A stretch of 64,000 bases of DNA from Mariniphaga sp. (lineage in GTDB: Bacteria; Bacteroidota; Bacteroidia; Bacteroidales; Prolixibacteraceae). Where the stretch lies: positions 186,001 through 250,000 of the forward strand of contig JAGXGA010000055.1 of assembly GCA_024636975.1 (NCBI GenBank). The letters run 5' to 3'. The notes under the pieces are model-generated. The model was not told where the DNA came from. It searched no databases and worked only from the letters and a program-made list of their open reading frames with translations. Numbering within the stretch: the stretch's first letter is position 1; every line of letters begins with the position of its first letter. Below are positions 386-26,700 of the stretch, piece by piece. The position numbers and the translations under genes were made by a program.

Positions 386-3300
386 TTATTTATTTTGGAT
401 GTTGTTTAAATATTGCTTGTATTTGTTATTATAGAAATTATTTAATTTATGTGAATTACGATTTAAATATTCCAGGGTAGAATTATTCTTCTGCTGATAT
501 TCAAAAAACTCCACAGGATTACTATAAAAATCATCAGCACTTTTACTTTCTCTTTCATCTTCAAATTCACGTTCCATTTCTGCTTTCTCTGCTTCGAGCA
601 AGCGTGTTGTAATAAGATTCTGCCGGGCAATCATTTGCGAATTTACATTTTTATTCATCAACTGCCTGCGATTCTGTTCCAGAATATCATCAATCTGCTG
701 CAGCGCCTTCTTTGCTTCACTGCCTACACCACCAGTATTCATAAGTTCCCGTAGCATCTGCTGCATCATTTCATGCTGCATCAGTGACTGGCCCAACTGC
801 TGATTCATGTTTTGCTGGTTTCCGTTTTTCATTTGCTCAATCATTTGCTGCAATTGTTCCTTTAAGCTTTCCGATTGCTCCTTGAGCAGATTCATCCCTG
901 GCTTTCCCTGCCCCGGATTATCGCTTTCCTGATCACCAGGTTTTGCGTTTGCCATCTGTTGTTCCAGATTGTCGAGTGCTTCATTTAATAAAAGTGCCAG
1001 GTTATTTGTGGCAGTCATTACAAATTGCTGACTAACACGTGCATTTGGATACAATCCTTCACCCATTTCATCAATTGCTTTATTAAGATTAAGCTCAATG
1101 TTTAGCAACTCATTGCTAATCATATTATTAATATGAGGAGTACGTTTTGCAAGCGCATAGAGTGAGTCTTTTACAATCTGACTTTGGTCACTTATACGTT
1201 TCTGTACACGGTTCAATTCGTTAAGAGAAGGATCAATCGTATGGATACCTGATAATTCATTTAGCACTTTCTCCTGTTCAAATGAAAGATAAACCAGGTT
1301 ACTAAGTATTTGTTTCAGGTTTTGAATGTTCTCCATATTTTGTTTTGTAGTGTTCGAATCAAGCATCTGCTGCATGGCAAAGGCAGTATTTTTCATTTTT
1401 TCGGAAGTTTCTTTCATGTCGGAACCAGCTTTCTTTTGATTTTTCTGTTTCAATGCATCTTTACTGTCTTCCATACTTTTCTGAATATCCTCGAACTCTT
1501 CACTAAAATCATCGAAATTCATTTGTTCTTTCAACTCCTCATTTAACTGAAGAGCATCGTTTATCTGATCTTGCAAATTATTTAATTCCTGCTCATTCTG
1601 TTCCTGTTGTTGCCCTACTTCTTCAAAATCCGACTGTTCATTTATATCTTCAGCCATTTTTTCTTCCACAGCCGCCATACGGCTCAACTCATCAATTACA
1701 TCCTGAAGTTTCTGTTCAACTTTCATTTTCCTCAGCATTTCAAGGTTCCTGTCGAGTTGCTTCTGCAGGTCTTCATAGGTAAAATCCATTTTTTCAGTAA
1801 GTTGGTTAAGCATTTTACTGTCAAATTCTTCAGCAAGCTTTTGAAACTCCTCCAACAATTCCTTTAACTCATCAGTAAAAACTTCTTCAAGTAATTCTTC
1901 TATTTGTTTTTGCTTTTCAACTATATCCTGATTCTGCTCATTGAAAGAGTTCATATAGTTATTCAGCTGTTCGTTGTCCTTTTTGATTTTTTCGTAAAGT
2001 TGCTCCAGCTGGTCCTGCTTTGATAGCACTTCATTCACCATCTGAGTCTTTTCCCAGTCAGATACATTGGTATCCATATTCTTTAACCGAAGATTCTGTA
2101 AATCGTTTTGAATCTCCTTAGCCAGCTTTTCACTTTGTTGCAGCATATCCTCCAACTTATTGAACTGATCATTTTCGCTTTGGGCTACTTCCTGTCTGCT
2201 GGGAACATTAAACGTGAAATTATCGGATGTAGTGGTTTTATAATTATTAATGACATCATTGTCGGTAACTGAAAAATAATAGGAGATTGTACCTGTTGAC
2301 AAGCCCAAATCAGCGAAATCGAAACTGAAATAAAAATCCTGATCGGTTAAATTCCTTGTGAATGGAATTGAAACTGCAGAATCAGCATTGTTAATATTGT
2401 AATGAAATTTCAATGAAGAAAAACCATAATCATCACCTATTGATCCTTTAAAAAAGAATCTTGACATTTTCAATGAATCCTGCAACCTTACAAGATTTAT
2501 TTCAGGATACAGGTCAGGAATAACTTCCACAGAATAAGAAAGCGCTAAATCAGGCTCAGTAAGGTCATTTTTAATATATACATGATAACCAGCAGATTTA
2601 AAAAATGAATGTTCTACGTGAAACGCTTTATCATTTTTCTGTCCGCCAATTACGATTGAATCTGCCATATTAAGATAAAGCGTATCAATATCAATACCTT
2701 TAAAATTCCATTCCACTTTTGTTCCATTAGGAACCTGAAGATCACCTGTATTTTCGAAATTTTGAACAGCAAGACCAGTATAGGAAGGAGGTGTAACTGT
2801 AACATCGAAATGATTTATACCCGGTTTAGGCAGCAACTGCAGAGCATAAACCTCTGAGTTGTACTTTAAATCAGTAAAATAAAAGTTAACCGGATTAATT
2901 ACAGAAGCCATTTCAAATTCAAAATTACCGGGCCCGGTATTCTTCATCAGGTAATTATTCCCTTCTATATTTATATATATAATTTCGGGAATTTCATTTC
3001 CCCTTGATTCCATACTAATTTTAAAAGCTTCACCTTTTGTTGCCTTCAAATCGTTATTCAGCAGATGAAAGCTATATGGAGCAGGTTTTACAAATTGGGT
3101 ATTATAATGTATAATACGGTTGGGTGCAGTTGTAAATATCGATTTATTCATACCAAAAACAACGGCAGTGATAAGCACACTTGCCAAAAAATAAAGCATT
3201 ATCAGCTTTAGATTTTTGTATTGCACTGCCTGTCTGAAATCGAAAACACTTAGTTCATCAATTTTCTGATCAATACTGGCAAATACGATTTCCCTTGATG

Positions 3301-15934: not shown

Positions 15935-16672
15935 CTATAAAGATTCTATATTCTTTCCTATCATAATTAATGAAGGGGTTTCAGGGATGTTTTTTTGCAG
16001 AAACTCATCCACTTCACCAAGTGTTGTCTGGTATTTTATTTGTCCGGGCTGAGATATCCTGCACATTATCTGTACCTTAACCGTTTGCTCAATCCCATAA
16101 CTAAGGAGGCATTCAGCCAGATCAACAAGGTGGCATAGTCCCATGTATATTATAACAGGCGAACCAGTTTGAATTACATTTACAACCGATTCCACCTGTG
16201 GGTATCCACAGTTGTTCTTTCTTCCGGTATAAAAGAGGACCATGCTGTTTTTCCCCCGTCGGGTAAGAGGTGTTGTAAACAGTGAAGCCCCGGCCATGGC
16301 AGCAGTAATTCCGGGAATGACTTCAAAGTTAAGCTGATGTTTGCGACAAAAGCTGATTTCTTCCGCCCCCCGGCTGTAAACCATCGGATCGCCTGATTTT
16401 AAGCGTACAATCTGCTTGTTTTGCTGAGCCCAGTACAAAAACTGGTTATGAATATCATCCTGTCGTTTCTGGGGGTCCTGACCGTCGTTATGCAATTTAC
16501 CGAAATACATTTTTACTGCATCAGGTGGCGCTATATTCAGCAATTCTTCACCTATTAAGGCATCGTATAAAACCACCTGAGAATTTTTAAGCCGGTTCAT
16601 TGCCTTAACAGTCATAAGTTCCGGGTCACCCGGACCTGCGCCAACAATTGATATCAGATGCGATAAGCCCAT
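15935..16672 (-). CDS. cobA: Uroporphyrinogen-III C-methyltransferase
   Basis: Transfers two methyl groups from SAM to uroporphyrinogen III, giving precorrin-2 for siroheme (and B12) synthesis. The 245 residues contain the SUMT hallmarks: IVGAGPGDPELMTVKA at the N-terminus, LKSGDPMVYSRGAEE in the centre and the PGITAAMAGAS loop. It is the last gene of the sulfite reduction operon and its 5' end overlaps the preceding SDR gene by 19 bp. Together with the SirC-type protein at 21.0-21.5 kb it completes siroheme synthesis for CysI. Confidence 0.95.
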   Translation of the reverse strand: MGLSHLISIVGAGPGDPELMTVKAMNRLKNSQVVLYDALIGEELLNIAPPDAVKMYFGKLHNDGQDPQKRQDDIHNQFLYWAQQNKQIVRLKSGDPMVYSRGAEEISFCRKHQLNFEVIPGITAAMAGASLFTTPLTRRGKNSMVLFYTGRKNNCGYPQVESVVNVIQTGSPVIIYMGLCHLVDLAECLLSYGIEQTVKVQIMCRISQPGQIKYQTTLGEVDEFLQKNIPETPSLIMIGKNIESL

Positions 16673-17531: not shown

Positions 17532-19232
17532 TTAATGCTGAAATTCTTTTCCTTCTTTGATTTCAGTTACATAATTGGTACGGATCACAAAATCACCCAG
17601 TTTTTCGTTCTCTTGTCGGTTTTGGGCATAATCTTTAAAAATAGGGTCCAGTACCTCCAGTATTTCCTGTTCCGACAGCGTCTCCTTATAGAGCTTGTTC
17701 AGGCGTGTTCCGTCGAAACTACCCCCCAGGTAAAGGTTATAGTAACCCAGTGATTTTCCGATAAGCCCTATTTCAGCCAGATAAGGCCTCCCGCAGCCAT
17801 TTGGGCAGCCGGTCATGCGAATCACTATTTCTTCCTTCAGCAATTTGTATTCTTTCAGTTTATTTTCCAGTTTTGTTATCAGGGTGGGTAAATACCGTTC
17901 GGCTTCTGAAAAGGCAAGCGGGCAGGTAGGAAGTGCTACACAGGATATTGAATTCTTACGCAATCCGGAGATGTTGCCGGGTGAAGCGTTGTTTTTTTCC
18001 AGAATGGCGTTCACCTGGTTTTTCACCTTTTCCGATACGCCGGCTATAATTACATTTTGGTTGCCGGTGAGGATAAAATTCCCGTCGCTGATACCTGCTA
18101 TTTCCCGTATGGCGCTTTTCAACTGAATTTCATCACTGTTCTTTACGCGACCCCCCTCTACAAAATAAGTCAGATGCCATTTATCATCGGTGCCTTTCTT
18201 CCAGCCGTAATTGTCTCCGTTACGGGTGAGTTTAAAGGGTTTTGCTTCAATAAGGGAGCTACCGGGCTGTTTCTGAAGCTCATTTTTAAACCAATCCAGC
18301 CCCAGCCGGTCGATTGTATATTTTAACCGTGCCAGTTTTCTGTCAACCCGGTTACCATTATCGCGTTGGATGAGTACCACCTGTTCTGCAACTTTAAGCA
18401 CCTGGTCAGGTGTACAGAAGCCAATCACATTTCCGGTGCGGGGATAGGTTGAGGTATTGCCAAATGTTGAACCCAGTCCGCCCCCCACAACTACATTGTA
18501 GCCAATTATTTTTTCTTCTTCCACAATTGCAATAAATCCCAGATCCTGGGAAAATATGTCGCAGTCGTTTTGCGGAGGGATAATAATAGCTATTTTGAAT
18601 TTGCGGGGCAGGTAACGCCGGCCATATAAAGGTTCAATTTCTTCTTTACTGTCGACTATCAGCTTTTCATCGAGCCATATTTCATGGTAAGCCTTAGTGC
18701 GGGGCATTAAATGTCTTCCGATTTCTTTTGACAGCTCCATTATTTCAGGGTACAGGGGTGACTCAGCCGGATTGGCATGGCACATTACATTCCGGTTTAC
18801 ATCACCACATGCGGCAATGGTATCTAGTAAACTGTCGTTTATCTGGCGAATGGTTTTTTTAAGGTTTTTCTTCAAAACGCCGTGCAGCTGAAATGTCTGA
18901 CGGGTGGTTATTTTTAGTGTACCGTTAGCATATTTATCGGACAGGACATCCATTTGCAGCCATTGCTGCGGGCTGATGACTCCACCGGGCATGCGTACCC
19001 TTATTAAAAATGAAAAGGCAGGTTCCAGTTTTTGCTGTTTCCGTTCTTTATCAAGGTCACGGTCCCATTGAAGGTAAGTTCCATGAAATTTCGATATCTG
19101 CCGGTCGGATGGTGAAATGGCACCGGTTAGCGGATCTGCCAGACTTTCCTCCAGGGTGCCACGCAGGTAATTACTGTCGTATTTTATTTTTTCGAGTCCT
19201 GATAATTCTTTCCAATTAATTTCTTCACTCAT
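17532..19232 (-). CDS. cysI: Assimilatory sulfite reductase hemoprotein subunit
   Basis: Reduces sulfite to sulfide with six electrons at a siroheme-[4Fe-4S] centre. The 566 residues contain both nitrite/sulfite reductase repeats and the four cluster ligands C431, C437 (CVALPTC), C476 and C480 (CPNGC), the last bridging to siroheme. CDVNRNVMCHANPAE (about residues 145-160) is the conserved substrate/siroheme region. It follows cysJ by 17 bp, so the two subunits are cotranscribed. A gap of 38 bp leads to the SDR gene. Confidence 0.97.
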   Translation of the reverse strand: MSEEINWKELSGLEKIKYDSNYLRGTLEESLADPLTGAISPSDRQISKFHGTYLQWDRDLDKERKQQKLEPAFSFLIRVRMPGGVISPQQWLQMDVLSDKYANGTLKITTRQTFQLHGVLKKNLKKTIRQINDSLLDTIAACGDVNRNVMCHANPAESPLYPEIMELSKEIGRHLMPRTKAYHEIWLDEKLIVDSKEEIEPLYGRRYLPRKFKIAIIIPPQNDCDIFSQDLGFIAIVEEEKIIGYNVVVGGGLGSTFGNTSTYPRTGNVIGFCTPDQVLKVAEQVVLIQRDNGNRVDRKLARLKYTIDRLGLDWFKNELQKQPGSSLIEAKPFKLTRNGDNYGWKKGTDDKWHLTYFVEGGRVKNSDEIQLKSAIREIAGISDGNFILTGNQNVIIAGVSEKVKNQVNAILEKNNASPGNISGLRKNSISCVALPTCPLAFSEAERYLPTLITKLENKLKEYKLLKEEIVIRMTGCPNGCGRPYLAEIGLIGKSLGYYNLYLGGSFDGTRLNKLYKETLSEQEILEVLDPIFKDYAQNRQENEKLGDFVIRTNYVTEIKEGKEFQH

Positions 19233-19249: not shown

Positions 19250-21034
19250 TTAATAAACATCACTCTGGAAACGCTTTTCGCGTTTCAACTGCTTTACATA
19301 CTTTTCGGCTTGTTCCTCACTAATTCCACCTTCAGTCCTGATTATTTCCAGCAAGGTTTTGTTAACATCTTTTGCCAGGTTTTTCCGGTCGCCGCATAAA
19401 TAAAAATGGGCTCCCAGTTCAAGCCACTGAAAAACCTCTTTCCGGTGCTCCAGCAGTTTATGCTGAATATAGACTTTCTCCTTTTGATCGCGGGAAAAAG
19501 CCACGTCCATTCTTTTTAGTTGTTTTGAATCAAGGTGTTTTTGCCATTCAAGCTGATACAGAAAATCGGAATAGAACCTGCGGTCGCCGAAAAAGAGCCA
19601 CGAATCTCCATCTATACCGAGGCTTTCGCGGTGTTGCATAAATGCACGGTAAGGAGCAATGCCTGTACCGGCGCCCACCATAATAATGGGAGATCCGTTT
19701 GCCGGCAACCTGAATGACGGGTTCTTCTCGATGTACACAGGAACTTTGTCACCTGGTTCAAGACAGTGCGACAGGAAGGACGAGCAGGCCCCGTTCCGAT
19801 GCCGGTTTTTTCTTTGGTATTGAACTACCGACACGGTTAAATGCACTTCCTCGCCTACGTTTTCCTGACTCGATGAAATGGAATACAGCCTCGGAGGCAG
19901 CTGCCTTAAAATGTCAGCCAGGTCCTGCGCCTTCCATTCAAAGGGAAAATCTTCCAATAGGTCGAACAGATCGTTTCCATACAGGTAATCATCTAGCAGG
20001 CTTTCATCACCGAGCAATTTCCCAACTTCCTCAATGCCAGTTTTTGTATAATAATTTTGAACCACTTCGCGGGTAAGCAATGTGATTTCCAGGTGATGAG
20101 AGAGTGCTTCGCCGATTGTAATTTCACCTGTTCTCAGATTTATGGTTTGAGAAGGTGTAAACCCCGACTTCTGGATTACCTGTTCTACCAGCACGACAGG
20201 GTTTTGAGTAAATATGCCTGCTGCATCGCCCGGTTCGTAAGTAAGCCCTGAATCTTCCAGGGAAAGCTCCAAATGAAAAACTTCTTTGTCTGAATCACGC
20301 CCTGTAATTCTTACCTTATCAAGCACAGTGGCCATAAACGGATTTTGTTTTGAGTATTCAGTGGCAACCTTTGTTGAAACATCCCTTTCGTTTGTGCTTG
20401 TACCTTCCGCAGGTGCAATATTTTTTAAAAGCAGGTTCATCCATGCTTCGGTATCATCTTCGTAATTCACATCACAATTTACAAGGGGTGTTATACATAA
20501 AGCCCCCAGCCTTGTAAATGCAGAATCAATGTCCTTGCCCGTCTGGCAAAAGTGTTTATACGTTTTATCACCCAGAGCCAAAACCGAGTAGCTAACGTTC
20601 TCCATCCGGGATGCGCGTTTGTTTGTAACAAAATTGTGAAAATCTTCAGCCATGGCTGGCGGTTCGCCTTCGCCATGTGTACTTACAATAACCGCTAAAT
20701 TCTTCTCTTCCTTAAGTTTGCGTGGATTATAATCGTACATGCTGTTTACATGCACTTCAATATTGTGTTTCCCGGCCTTTTCTGCAAGCTTTGCTGCCAG
20801 AGCCTCCGACCTTCCGGTATCGGTACCGAACAGGATGGTCAGCTTTGTTTTTGTTTCAGTCCGGTCAGCCATCGCGGACACAGCAGTTGTTTGCTTGCCA
20901 TTGGGTTGAATGGCAGCTAGTCTTCCCTCGAGGTAGCCGCTCAGCCAAAGTATCTGCTCAGTGGTAAGTTCCCTGGTTACCTGTTCCAGAGCTGCCAGCT
21001 GACTTTCAGTTAACGGGTTCGTTTTTGAATTCAT
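19250..21034 (-). CDS. cysJ: Sulfite reductase flavoprotein subunit
   Basis: FMN/FAD flavoprotein that passes electrons from NADPH to CysI. Order: short helical leader, flavodoxin domain (ILFGTDTGRSEALA, then VIVSTHGEGEPP and LALGDKTYKHFC), FAD-binding domain with RLYSISSS, and NADPH-binding domain with GAGTGIAPYRAFMQ and CGDRKNLAKDV, ending in the standard RFQSDVY. I use ATG 21034 (595 residues), not the 46-residue longer frame, because it makes an ATGA overlap with the preceding gene's stop (21031-21033). Confidence 0.96.
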   Translation of the reverse strand: MNSKTNPLTESQLAALEQVTRELTTEQILWLSGYLEGRLAAIQPNGKQTTAVSAMADRTETKTKLTILFGTDTGRSEALAAKLAEKAGKHNIEVHVNSMYDYNPRKLKEEKNLAVIVSTHGEGEPPAMAEDFHNFVTNKRASRMENVSYSVLALGDKTYKHFCQTGKDIDSAFTRLGALCITPLVNCDVNYEDDTEAWMNLLLKNIAPAEGTSTNERDVSTKVATEYSKQNPFMATVLDKVRITGRDSDKEVFHLELSLEDSGLTYEPGDAAGIFTQNPVVLVEQVIQKSGFTPSQTINLRTGEITIGEALSHHLEITLLTREVVQNYYTKTGIEEVGKLLGDESLLDDYLYGNDLFDLLEDFPFEWKAQDLADILRQLPPRLYSISSSQENVGEEVHLTVSVVQYQRKNRHRNGACSSFLSHCLEPGDKVPVYIEKNPSFRLPANGSPIIMVGAGTGIAPYRAFMQHRESLGIDGDSWLFFGDRRFYSDFLYQLEWQKHLDSKQLKRMDVAFSRDQKEKVYIQHKLLEHRKEVFQWLELGAHFYLCGDRKNLAKDVNKTLLEIIRTEGGISEEQAEKYVKQLKREKRFQSDVY

Positions 21035-21528
21035 TGTTCTATATTTTCTGATTGTAAATAATCCTGAAGACTGTTTCTTAACCTGATGGACTCGTATACA
21101 TCTTCGCCATTGGAACTCACTGCCACCGAAATGTTGCCGTTCCTGTAAATTGCGGGTGAAATGAACCTGCAAAGCGCCGGCTTGTCATGAATGTTGATTA
21201 AAACACCGGCTACCTTGCCATCTTCGGCAATTTTCCGGTCGAGGGTTATATTATTGGTGCACGAGTATACCATCAGATAGTTTTGAAGGCATTCTGAATG
21301 GTATTCCGTTTCATAGAATACGATCCCACTTTGCCTGATTTCAGAGCATACTTTTTTTGCCAATACCTCCACTTCGGCGCCAAACCGTTGCAAAATTTTA
21401 AGCTTTTTTACCGCACTTTGATCCCCTCCCACAATCAGGATTTTTTCTCCTGAAATGTCAATGGCTATGGGCAAAAAGTTCTTTTTCATTCTCATTCCTT
21501 CAACTATTAATATTCTTTCTTTTTCCAT
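21031..21528 (-). CDS. Precorrin-2 dehydrogenase/sirohydrochlorin ferrochelatase (SirC/Met8-type)
   Basis: N-terminal half of a CysG-like enzyme as a stand-alone 165-residue protein: NAD-dependent oxidation of precorrin-2, and probably iron insertion, to give siroheme. The Rossmann motif EKILIVGGDQSAVKKLKIL (about 29-47) and the PALCRFISPAIYRNGNISVAVSSNG segment match the family. Other possible starts are Met12 and Met14 (21489); Met14 is preceded by GAAGG at good spacing and matches where homologues begin. First gene of the sulfite reduction operon, behind the attenuator. Confidence 0.9.
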   Translation of the reverse strand: MEKERILIVEGMRMKKNFLPIAIDISGEKILIVGGDQSAVKKLKILQRFGAEVEVLAKKVCSEIRQSGIVFYETEYHSECLQNYLMVYSCTNNITLDRKIAEDGKVAGVLINIHDKPALCRFISPAIYRNGNISVAVSSNGEDVYESIRLRNSLQDYLQSENIEQ

Positions 21529-21550
21529 CTGGACTTAACCGGTTTAAAAA

Positions 21551-21585
21551 ACAAAGGCCCTTCTGCTGGTTGCAGAAGGGCCTTT
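21551..21585 (-). terminator. Intrinsic terminator in the leader of the sulfite reduction operon (attenuator)
   Basis: On the minus strand a perfect 14-bp stem (arms 21585-21572 and 21566-21553, 5-nt loop AACCA) is followed by GTTTTTT. It lies between the leader peptide gene and the first structural gene, 23 bp before the outermost start, so it would abort the operon transcript rather than end a previous one. The first arm contains CTTCTGCA, complementary to TGCAGAAG at 21633-21626 inside the leader peptide gene, which gives an alternative antiterminator helix of 8 bp. Confidence 0.85.
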
Positions 21586-21614
21586 GGCTTTCATATATAA
21601 CGCTTTTCGGTTAT

Positions 21615-21710
21615 TTATATATCTTCTTCTGCACATAAAAATAATGAGCCACACATACATACCATGCATGCCATTCGGTTCATTTTTAGGTGCGAAGAAT
21701 TTCTTTTCAT
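21615..21710 (-). CDS. Cys/Met-rich leader peptide of the sulfite reduction operon
   Basis: A 31-codon frame with ATG at 21710 and TAA at 21617-21615, too short for usual gene callers. Residues 10-20 read MNRMACMVCMC; in all there are four Cys (15, 18, 20, 26) and four internal Met (10, 13, 16, 19), a density far above chance for a gene controlling sulfur assimilation. A ribosome stalled at codons 15-20 would leave TGCAGAAG (21633-21626, codons 26-29) free to pair with the first terminator arm and let transcription continue. A ribosome reaching the stop would cover it and permit termination. The mechanism is inferred. Confidence 0.75.
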   Translation of the reverse strand: MKRNSSHLKMNRMACMVCMCGSLFLCAEEDI

Positions 21711-21759
21711 CGTGTCTTGTCGTTTAAAACTATGTCAATTTTATCCCTTGTCTCGATTG

Positions 21760-21767
21760 CAAATGTA
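21760..21767 (-). promoter_or_regulatory. -7 promoter element (TACATTTG) of the sulfite reduction operon
   Basis: Exact TAnnTTTG match on the minus strand. Transcription would start near 21753, giving about 43 nt before the leader peptide ATG and roughly 225 nt before the first structural gene. No clear TTTG is visible at -33. Confidence 0.5.
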
Positions 21768-21918
21768 AATAATTATTTTACTTCTCATAAAAAGTGAATA
21801 ACTTTTTTTTATTCAGTCTAAATAAACTTCACAGCTTTGCCTTATTAAACCTATTGATTTTCAACTGTTAAATTATCTCTGACCGTTTAAAATAAGGACG
21901 TTTAAAAATTCAGGCCTA

Positions 21919-22413
21919 TCAGCCGATTATTTTCTGGTACGCCACTACGTCGAGCAACCGGTTAAATTTCTCGCCTACCTGCTTGTAATGGGCACATTTA
22001 TCATAGCCACATTTCTCAAACAATTTAATGCTGGCATAGTTTTCACCTGTGATAATCCCAATCAGTACGCAAATATTGTTTTGCTGTGCAACCTGTTCAA
22101 GTAACTTCATTGTTTCTTTTCCAATACCTTTATTCCAGAATTCCGGTTTCAGGTAAAGGGTAATTTCAGCCGTCCGGTCGTACGCCTGTCTCGGCTTGTA
22201 CCTCGAAATGTAACAATAGCCGCATACCATTCCGTCATATTCAATCAGGTACGATTTATATTTCGGATGACCTGCCGGAATTACAGATTTTAATTCCTCT
22301 AATGAAATCAGACCGGTATGAAAAGTAGCGGTTGTGTTCAGAATATAATAATCATAAATTTCCTTAACAATGCTGTAATCCTTTTCCTGTAAATCAATAA
22401 GCTTCACATTCAT
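21919..22413 (-). CDS. GNAT acetyltransferase, phosphinothricin-acetyltransferase-like
   Basis: A 164-residue acetyl-CoA-dependent N-acetyltransferase. The acetyl-CoA loop is NKGIGKETMKLLEQ (about 93-106). The N-terminal EIYDYYILNTTATFHT and the YISRYKPRQAY..TAEITLYL segment resemble the PAT/Bar and YwnH-type group that acts on methionine sulfoximine-like or amino-acid substrates. It is minus-strand and ends upstream of the sulfur operon promoter. The true substrate is unknown. Confidence 0.85.
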   Translation of the reverse strand: MNVKLIDLQEKDYSIVKEIYDYYILNTTATFHTGLISLEELKSVIPAGHPKYKSYLIEYDGMVCGYCYISRYKPRQAYDRTAEITLYLKPEFWNKGIGKETMKLLEQVAQQNNICVLIGIITGENYASIKLFEKCGYDKCAHYKQVGEKFNRLLDVVAYQKIIG

Positions 22414-25998: not shown

Positions 25999-26700
25999 TT
26001 AAATGTTGGCTACCCGCTTTAACCCGGGTGTATCCAAAAACTTGATTCTGCGTCCGTGCAGTTCAATCAGGTTATCCTGCCTGAATTCCGAAAGCAGGCG
26101 GATTACCGATTCTGTGGCTGTACCCACCATGTTGGCCAGCTCTTCACGGGTTAACGAAATCTGAAGGGTATTTTGGTTATCGAGCTCAAAGTTTTCCATT
26201 AGCAGAAGCAAAACCTCAGCCAGGCGTTCGCGAACGGTTTTCTGGGCAATATCGGTGATGTAGTCGTTGGCTTCACGCAATTCGCGACAAACAATCTGCA
26301 GCATGTGGTGCGAAAACTGCCAGTTATTTTTAATTAAAAACTGCAAGGTCTGGTAGGGGATGTGGCATAAAACTGCCTCATCAATTACCTTGGCGGTAGT
26401 GCAAGCCAGCTCCTGGCTCAGCAACGAACGGTAGGCAATGATCTCCCCCTTTTTTGCAAAACGAATGATCTGCTCTTTTCCGTCGATACCTGTTTTAAGT
26501 ATTTTAACTATACCACGTGTAACACAGTAAAAACCGGTTAGCCTGCTTCCCTCACGATAAATGACAGTGCCTTTTTTGTAAAGCGAACATGTCTTTTCAT
26601 AATTAAGCTGGTTGAATTCTTCTTCATTCAGTTTCTTAAACAGATTAAATCCGCTTAAATCGGTTTCTTCATCGGTTGGTCTTTTTAATACACTTCTCAT
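25999..26700 (-). CDS. Crp/Fnr family transcriptional regulator
   Basis: A 233-residue regulator with an N-terminal cyclic-nucleotide-binding-like domain (about 20-145; GTVIYREGSRLTGFYCVTRG) and a C-terminal winged helix whose recognition region is LTREELANMVGTATESVIRLLSEF (about 180-203). It lacks the N-terminal Cys cluster of Fnr; its few cysteines are scattered, so direct Fe-S oxygen sensing is not indicated. It faces OsmC divergently across 183 bp and precedes YceI, pirin and aldehyde dehydrogenase genes, a plausible stress regulon. Confidence 0.92.
   Translation of the reverse strand: MRSVLKRPTDEETDLSGFNLFKKLNEEEFNQLNYEKTCSLYKKGTVIYREGSRLTGFYCVTRGIVKILKTGIDGKEQIIRFAKKGEIIAYRSLLSQELACTTAKVIDEAVLCHIPYQTLQFLIKNNWQFSHHMLQIVCRELREANDYITDIAQKTVRERLAEVLLLLMENFELDNQNTLQISLTREELANMVGTATESVIRLLSEFRQDNLIELHGRRIKFLDTPGLKRVANI

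Follow-up and report, generated by a model that had tools for sequence, protein, structure and literature searches.

The siroheme synthesis and sulfite reduction genes of Mariniphaga sp. are preceded by a leader that very probably acts as a ribosome-mediated transcription attenuator tuned to cysteine, with our confidence slightly lowered by a frame difference in the copy that lies in the window, the 64,000-nt stretch of genomic DNA analysed here. Ribosome-mediated attenuators control the trp, his and leu operons of enterobacteria, and the leader resembles them in that its peptide is rich in the amino acid produced by the pathway, in that its RNA comprises four segments capable of forming the helices 1:2, 2:3 and 3:4, and in that it contains an intrinsic terminator. 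It differs from them in the amino acid concerned, which is cysteine (together with methionine), in its host, a member of the Bacteroidota, and in the position of segment 1, which does not contain the regulatory codons but precedes them, so that a stalled ribosome would reside between segments 1 and 2. Such an attenuator would probably let the sulfite-reduction genes switch on only when cysteine runs short.

In the mechanism that we propose, RNA polymerase would start a few bases after position 21760, and a ribosome would begin to translate the leader ORF. With Cys-tRNA plentiful, this ribosome would move on to the stop codon and cover segment 2, allowing the terminator to form from segments 3 and 4 and to stop transcription prematurely, before sirC. 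With Cys-tRNA in short supply, as expected upon cysteine starvation, it would wait at Cys15, Cys18 or Cys20 and leave segment 2 free to pair with segment 3 ahead of the synthesis of segment 4, thereby allowing read-through into sirC-cysJ-cysI and the genes behind them. On a leader without a ribosome, segments 1 and 2 would pair and favour termination, a protective effect that is predicted to be strong in the window but to prevail in only half of its relatives. A conserved, protein-free switch before sulfite reductase, with related ones before cysK, osmC and metY, would explain how sulfur assimilation is matched to demand.

The leader, the genes behind it and its conservation

The leader and its flanking genes all lie on the minus strand of the window. 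Its promoter is marked by TACATTTG (21767-21760), which we take to be a -7 element of the Bacteroidota type and which is separated by 49 nt from the start codon of the leader ORF. This element, read directly from the letters, had been placed correctly in the initial annotation, and 49 of 54 named loci (see below) have the pattern TAnnTTTG at most 120 nt 5' of the leader, compared with 4 of 54 control windows placed some 500 nt farther 5'. The ORF comprises 31 codons, from the ATG at 21710 to the TAA at 21615, and encodes the peptide MKRNSSHLKMNRMACMVCMCGSLFLCAEEDI, whose four cysteines (Cys15, Cys18, Cys20 and Cys26) and four internal methionines (Met10, Met13, Met16 and Met19) had likewise been recognised at the outset. 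Between the ORF and the first gene lies an intrinsic terminator, a hairpin at 21586-21552 followed by TTTTTT; its U-tract had been described before, and its stem, when read directly (21586-21572 paired with 21566-21552), measures 15 bp instead of the 14 bp given previously.

The first gene 3' of the leader (21031-21528) encodes a SirC-like precorrin-2 dehydrogenase/siroheme synthase N-terminal domain, as judged from PF13241 and an alignment of homologs. Because these homologs start at approximately the equivalent of position 21489, this is probably the true start of the gene, and the start of the longer ORF at 21528 is probably wrong. Then follow genes for a CysJ-type sulfite reductase flavoprotein (19250-21070; PF00258, PF00667 and PF00175), a CysI-type sulfite reductase hemoprotein (17532-19232; PF01077 and PF03460), a protein without a Pfam match and a tetrapyrrole methylase (15935-16672; PF00590), probably for siroheme. 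The cluster functions in siroheme synthesis and sulfite reduction, and its order and spacing suggest that sirC-cysJ-cysI and the genes behind them form one operon. On its 5' side, the leader is flanked by a GNAT gene (21919-22413) on the same strand. No Rfam family matched the window above its gathering score, the best sub-threshold match at 21400-21800 being PyrR, with 29.5 bits against a cut-off of 54, and a known RNA family was therefore rejected as an explanation for the leader.

Taken alone, the window ORF is borderline in its four cysteine codons (p = 0.053) and unusual in its cysteine plus methionine codons (p = 0.0012; 5000 dinucleotide shuffles in both cases). The enrichment of these codons in homologous leaders, which the initial annotation had proposed as a check, proved to be a general feature: the 1701 codons of 56 leaders include 210 for cysteine (12.3%) and 292 for methionine (17.2%), methionine thus being the commoner. 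The +1 frame of the same ORFs holds 177 cysteine codons, as against the 210 in the ORF frame, but also 204 stop codons, and its many cysteine codons are a by-product of the TGTATGTGT core. In an alignment of 20 leaders, a Met-Cys-Met-Cys core is nearly constant, and many positions outside the Cys/Met codons and the pairing segments vary. This core, together with ribosome geometry, points to Cys15-Met-Val-Cys18-Met-Cys20 (21651-21668) as the presumed stall codons. The leader is a short translatable ORF enriched in codons for the product of the pathway, and the decisive evidence against a chance occurrence is its conservation, with 54 of 56 named SirC loci carrying it.

A SirC search in 100 related genomes yielded matches in 37, and the approximately 700 nt 5' of SirC were inspected at 30 loci (L003-L032). 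All of the 20 nearest (L003-L022) have a Cys-bearing ORF in the equivalent place, with a full terminator that was found by a script in 18 of them and is visible in the alignment in L008 and L020. At L023-L028, L030 and L031, no Cys-bearing ORF was present in the inspected 700 nt. However, all six genomes that contain L023-L028 (G016, G040, G009, G044, G055 and G033) have a strong match elsewhere to R1, a model built from the 20 nearest leaders. In G033, G044 and G055 (L072-L074), the leader precedes a gene for a small DUF2061-type protein and cysJ, and in G040 and G009 (L075 and L076) it precedes cysD-cysN, a gene for a DUF2061-like protein, sirC and cysJ; the families in these contexts were assigned from tests on L072 and L075. 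In several loci, the first gene 3' of the leader encodes a DUF2061 small membrane protein, at 2926-3153 (minus strand) in L072, the only one on which DUF2061 itself was tested, and as similar ORFs in L073-L076. Poly-Cys ORFs of a different design lie 5' of the more distant SirC genes of L029 and L032, the latter without this terminator.

An alignment scan for SirC gave the 56 named loci, 54 of which match R1 at 64.7 bits or more; the other two (L165 and L167) start at a contig edge. Their sources include Tangfeifania (Prolixibacteraceae), Mariniphaga, Draconibacterium, Maribellus, Sunxiuqinia, Gaoshiqia, Marinilabilia (Marinilabiliaceae), Anaerophaga and Thermophagus, along with numerous metagenome bins, among them one titled Odoribacter and one titled Chlorobiota. 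Within the family of the window, R1 matches with E ≤ 0.001 occur in 90 of 140 genomes. This figure is an overestimate, since a match of at most 43 bits may be a plain terminator, as those inspected in the window's own genome appear to be; matches of at least 83 bits occur in 65 of the 140. Some weak matches 5' of cysK are Cys leaders of another class. Across 295 genomes of the order, R1 found only the window and two weak matches, which were rejected as plain terminators without a Cys leader.

Three RNA helices and their coordinated change

Segment 1, TTCTTCGCAC (21690-21699), corresponds to codons 4-7 of the ORF and pairs, with one bulged base, with segment 2, GTGCAGAAGAA (21624-21634), at the ORF end. 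Segment 2, which includes TGCAGAAG at 21633-21626, is also the antiterminator strand, since it can alternatively pair with segment 3, CAAAGGCCCTTCTGC (21572-21586), the 5' arm of the terminator. Segment 4, GCAGAAGGGCCTTTG (21546-21566), provides the 3' arm plus the U tract. The region 21529-21760 folds with a z-score of -6.07, none of 200 shuffles being equally good. Its minimum-energy fold contains helix 1:2 (21699-21690 with 21634-21624), a third conserved helix missed by the initial annotation, which had proposed the pairing of TGCAGAAG with the first terminator arm as an antiterminator exclusive of the terminator.

As judged from the comparison of homologous leaders, all three helices are conserved with coordinated change, and helix 2:3 is an antiterminator mutually exclusive with the terminator. 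The compensatory changes anticipated for the antiterminator and the terminator are indeed present in both. Among the 20 aligned leaders, 94.4% of the cells of helix 2:3 are paired, with 8 double-change cells compared to 2.8 in shuffles (0/500), and 94.6% of those of helix 3:4, with 13 compared to 4.7 (0/500); for helix 1:2, the values are 80.0% and 7 compared to 3.0 (2/500). These counts were complemented by an alignment-free swap test, in which segment partners are exchanged between sequences and the pairing energies compared. From 57 loci, it retained 56 distinct leaders, one duplicate having been dropped, with gene context known for part of them. The true partners reached -11.84 kcal/mol for 1:2 and -14.80 kcal/mol for 2:3, as against -9.03 and -12.46 kcal/mol after swapping (2.8 and 2.3 better, respectively), with none of 2000 swaps as good in either case, whereas true and swapped values were alike for the non-partner control 1:3. 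The result persists in 36, 21 and 14 representatives (<75, <65 and <60% identity; 0/5000 each), which only partly cure the relatedness of the sequences that makes such shuffle counts overstate independence. We place weight on the pair counts for 2:3 and on the swap tests because another alignment was fitted to helices 1:2 and 3:4. In three leaders (L080, L081 and L086), both partners of helix 2:3 differ together from the common form at several bases.

Ribosome position and the window copy

With an assumed footprint of 15 nt on either side, a ribosome that has the last upstream cysteine codon in its A site does not reach the antiterminator strand in 54 of the 56 leaders, and one at the stop codon overlaps segment 2 in 52 of 56. 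In this model, a stall leaves the antiterminator strand free and the stop position covers it in nearly all of the leaders, in line with the initial proposal of a stall at Cys20. The proposal needs to be amended for the window copy, which is one of the two exceptions to the stall geometry, due to Cys26. As this codon overlaps TGCAGAAG and thus segment 2, only Cys15, Cys18 and Cys20 can be stall codons that leave segment 2 free, and a stall at Cys26 would favour termination.

Partition-function folding agrees with these geometries. When the ribosome is placed at the last cysteine codon clear of segment 2, a state that leaves out overlapping codons such as Cys26 of the window, at least five 2:3 pairs are expected in 56 of 56 leaders, and with the ribosome at the stop codon at least eight 3:4 pairs, again in 56 of 56. 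If no ribosome is present and segment 4 is left out, the balance favours helix 1:2 over 2:3 in 28 of 56 leaders. The ribosome-free window RNA strongly favours 1:2 (7.73 vs 0.21 expected pairs), suggesting that 1:2 likely serves as a protector in the window, whereas this role is uncertain in general. If 1:2 is allowed to close round the stalled ribosome, it beats 2:3 in 10 of 56 leaders, the window included (4.79 vs 3.10 expected pairs), in which case the window leader would be less inducible than most.

The window copy is also peculiar in its reading frame, with the core of segment 2 lying in the +1 frame of the ORF, as opposed to frame 0 in the other 55 of the 56 leaders. As a consequence, segment 2 reads Cys-Ala-Glu-Glu where most relatives have Gln-Lys or Gln-Arg. 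The pairing of the RNA thus survives a shift that alters the end of the peptide, consistent with a role for the RNA and not for the peptide end. It may be that the window copy is atypical, degenerate or affected by a sequence error.

Related leaders and the amino acid sensed

Related leaders precede other sulfur genes, and the differences in cysteine and methionine content among these sisters constitute a natural experiment on codon-specific sensing. Within the set of 56, L078-L082 and L086 stand before carbonic anhydrase, OsmC or DUF4395-like genes, except for L079, which is followed by no evident sulfur gene. The 13 leaders of the cysK2 class, located before cysK, contain 19.0% Cys and 4.7% Met, the 12 of the osmC and/or cysK class 14.2% Cys and 14.8% Met, and the 11 of the metY class, from 10 loci, 25.9% Met and 16.1% Cys, so that the classes overlap in composition, through the methionine of the osmC-cysK leaders and the cysteine of the metY class as a whole. 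The metY leaders of the window's family (L088, L099 and L102, the latter two assigned to metY by N-termini) have 9 to 11 Met and 0 to 3 Cys codons; L102, with 10 Met and 0 Cys, shows the same architecture, and L088 is followed by genes for O-acetylhomoserine sulfhydrylase and a MetX-like protein below the NCBIfam cut-off. When 40 leaders from these classes and the carbonic anhydrase/OsmC class were subjected to the swap test for helix 2:3, the true partners again proved superior (-13.04 vs -9.04; 0/2000). Six of the 40 are also among the 56; they represent 42 leaders minus L219 and L223, for which the terminator finder gave none, and include L079, L221, L229, L233 and L234 despite short or doubtful terminator stems.

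When 247 genomes of the phylum were searched with MetY of the L088 type, 30 loci were obtained, and at 7 of these a Met/Cys-rich leader lies near metY. All seven are among the 19 loci of a single family (f124, at a guess the Flavobacteriaceae) from the same class as the window, and in these, apart from the second ORF of L250, the terminator arm again finds its partner in the ORF end. The loci with a Met-rich or Met/Cys-rich leader close to metY are L088, L099, L102, L250-L255 and L259, with a SAM-II riboswitch nearby on the opposite strand at L253. In several members of the window's family, short Cys-rich, mostly Met-poor ORFs lie 5' of cysK (L233-L240 and L242), and most of them are followed by a terminator. 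At L084, L085, L087, L091-L094, L096-L098, L100 and L101, genes for an OsmC-like protein and/or cysK are preceded by leaders such as MMCMCCCM..HVEG, which have a terminator and a segment 2 of their own (often TGTGGAGGG). In the window's own genome, two cysK copies and cysD (L230-L232) have no such leader. CysD matched in 130 of 345 genomes of the phylum; of the best 30 loci examined, 6 had a short ORF with at least three cysteines (a loose rule), 4 of them alike, and none of the 6 showed the leader pattern by eye.

These data bear on what the hairpin and the peptide do. The hairpin could simply terminate an independent small RNA or the upstream gene, with the ORF a by-product. The GNAT gene does lie on the same strand and strong terminators are common, as illustrated by the plain-looking R1 matches of up to 43 bits in the same genome. 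However, the promoter element is conserved between the upstream gene and the ORF, the ORF itself is conserved, and its end changes together with the terminator arm, which a plain terminator would not need. We reject this explanation on account of the joint change and regard it as extremely improbable. A nascent-peptide arrest, in which the Met-Cys-Met-Cys peptide stalls the ribosome on a small molecule or metal (sulfide, copper or SAM) rather than on uncharged tRNA, is also quite unlikely, if somewhat less so. It would account for the near-constant core, and Cys/Met-rich peptides could bind metals. Yet the other leader classes differ in their peptides while keeping Cys/Met codons and the pairing between ORF end and terminator, and variation is frequent outside the Cys/Met positions and pairing segments. 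The attenuator reading is thus preferred, and codon-specific sensing of sulfur amino acids by these leaders is likely on comparative grounds.

Which codons matter is less clear-cut. The initial annotation had suggested that charged tRNA-Cys (and tRNA-Met) is sensed. For the sirC leader, analogy and the gene contexts lend good support to cysteine sensing, and methionine sensing, jointly with cysteine, is plausible, the two not being separable in this leader. Methionine might even be sensed as much as or more than cysteine, as Met-codon stalls would also free segment 2, and the genes would then respond to the combined need for both sulfur amino acids, which draw on sulfide. The predominance of methionine codons in the 56 leaders and the low methionine content of the cysK2 class point in this direction, as does L102, whose methionine codons seem sufficient alone. 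On the other hand, the osmC-cysK leaders are Met-rich although the product of cysteine synthase is cysteine, and the methionine codons of the sirC leader belong to the near-constant TGTATGTGT core and may be kept for other reasons. We thus consider it possible but rather doubtful that methionine has so large a part, and cysteine remains the preferred signal. It is also conceivable, and only slightly less doubtful, that Bacteroidota leader-peptide attenuators of one shared design constitute a sulfur amino acid regulon, being Cys-dominated on cysK, mixed on sulfite reduction, which feeds both amino acids, and Met-dominated on metY, with the codon mix setting the product to which each answers. 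This idea is weakened by the high cysteine content of the metY class when taken as a whole.

Cysteine-responsive leaders have precedents in other phyla. Polycysteine leaders were predicted before mycobacterial cys operons (PMC1262725), and experiments on mycobacterial Cys-codon leaders have been reported (Canestrari et al. 2020, as cited in PMC9031893, PMC9094748 and PMC13236596). The likeness, which is one of logic only, lies in short ORFs with runs of cysteine codons before cys operons that are proposed or reported to answer to cysteine. Unlike the leader described here, with its terminator and coevolving antiterminator, the mycobacterial ones showed no conserved terminator-capable hairpin in the 2005 paper, as far as its passages on them go (PMC1262725). 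In the Rhodobacterales, the uORFC-8-2 motif 5' of cysS is a predicted Cys-tRNA attenuator and shares an upstream ORF with conserved cysteine codons and a U run consistent with a terminator stem (PMC8632094). It differs in its tandem cysteine codons, its association with a tRNA synthetase gene and its alphaproteobacterial hosts, whereas the present leader precedes an assimilation cluster, has relatives elsewhere and follows a different RNA design. Within the same phylum, leader-peptide attenuators 5' of amino-acid biosynthesis operons are noted for Flavobacterium psychrophilum, although none of those named under 5' cis-regulatory RNAs concerns cysteine, methionine or sulfite reductase (PMC9723704). 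Leader-like sORFs are mentioned for Bacteroides (PMC7366714), and the main text of a 2010 survey of premature terminators does not mention Bacteroidetes (PMC2965389). Among the matches listed in our literature search, which covered few subscription journals and no supplements, no title or abstract opening names a Cys or Met attenuator in Bacteroidota, in agreement with the initial annotation, which knew of no described case. As far as searched, a cysteine attenuator before sulfite reduction is thus new in Bacteroidota, whereas cysteine attenuators themselves have already been described in mycobacteria and predicted in Rhodobacterales. Our findings would make Bacteroidota the third phylum with cysteine attenuation, here involving a terminator and backed by strong comparative evidence.

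Two minor observations concern neighbouring elements. At L175, L176, L180 and L193, which belong to one family of the phylum, cysD is preceded by short Cys-bearing ORFs that resemble one another (MGYC..., MGCG...) and perhaps represent only another frame of a neighbouring gene. Moreover, 13 of the 54 named loci (L112-L115, L117, L119, L123, L131, L132, L135, L140, L143 and L144) have the sequence GTGA-N6-TCAC, a CRP/FNR-like palindrome or 5' hairpin, in the stretch from the -7 element to the leader ATG. The window leader lacks this sequence; a Crp-family gene is located in the window at 25999-26700.
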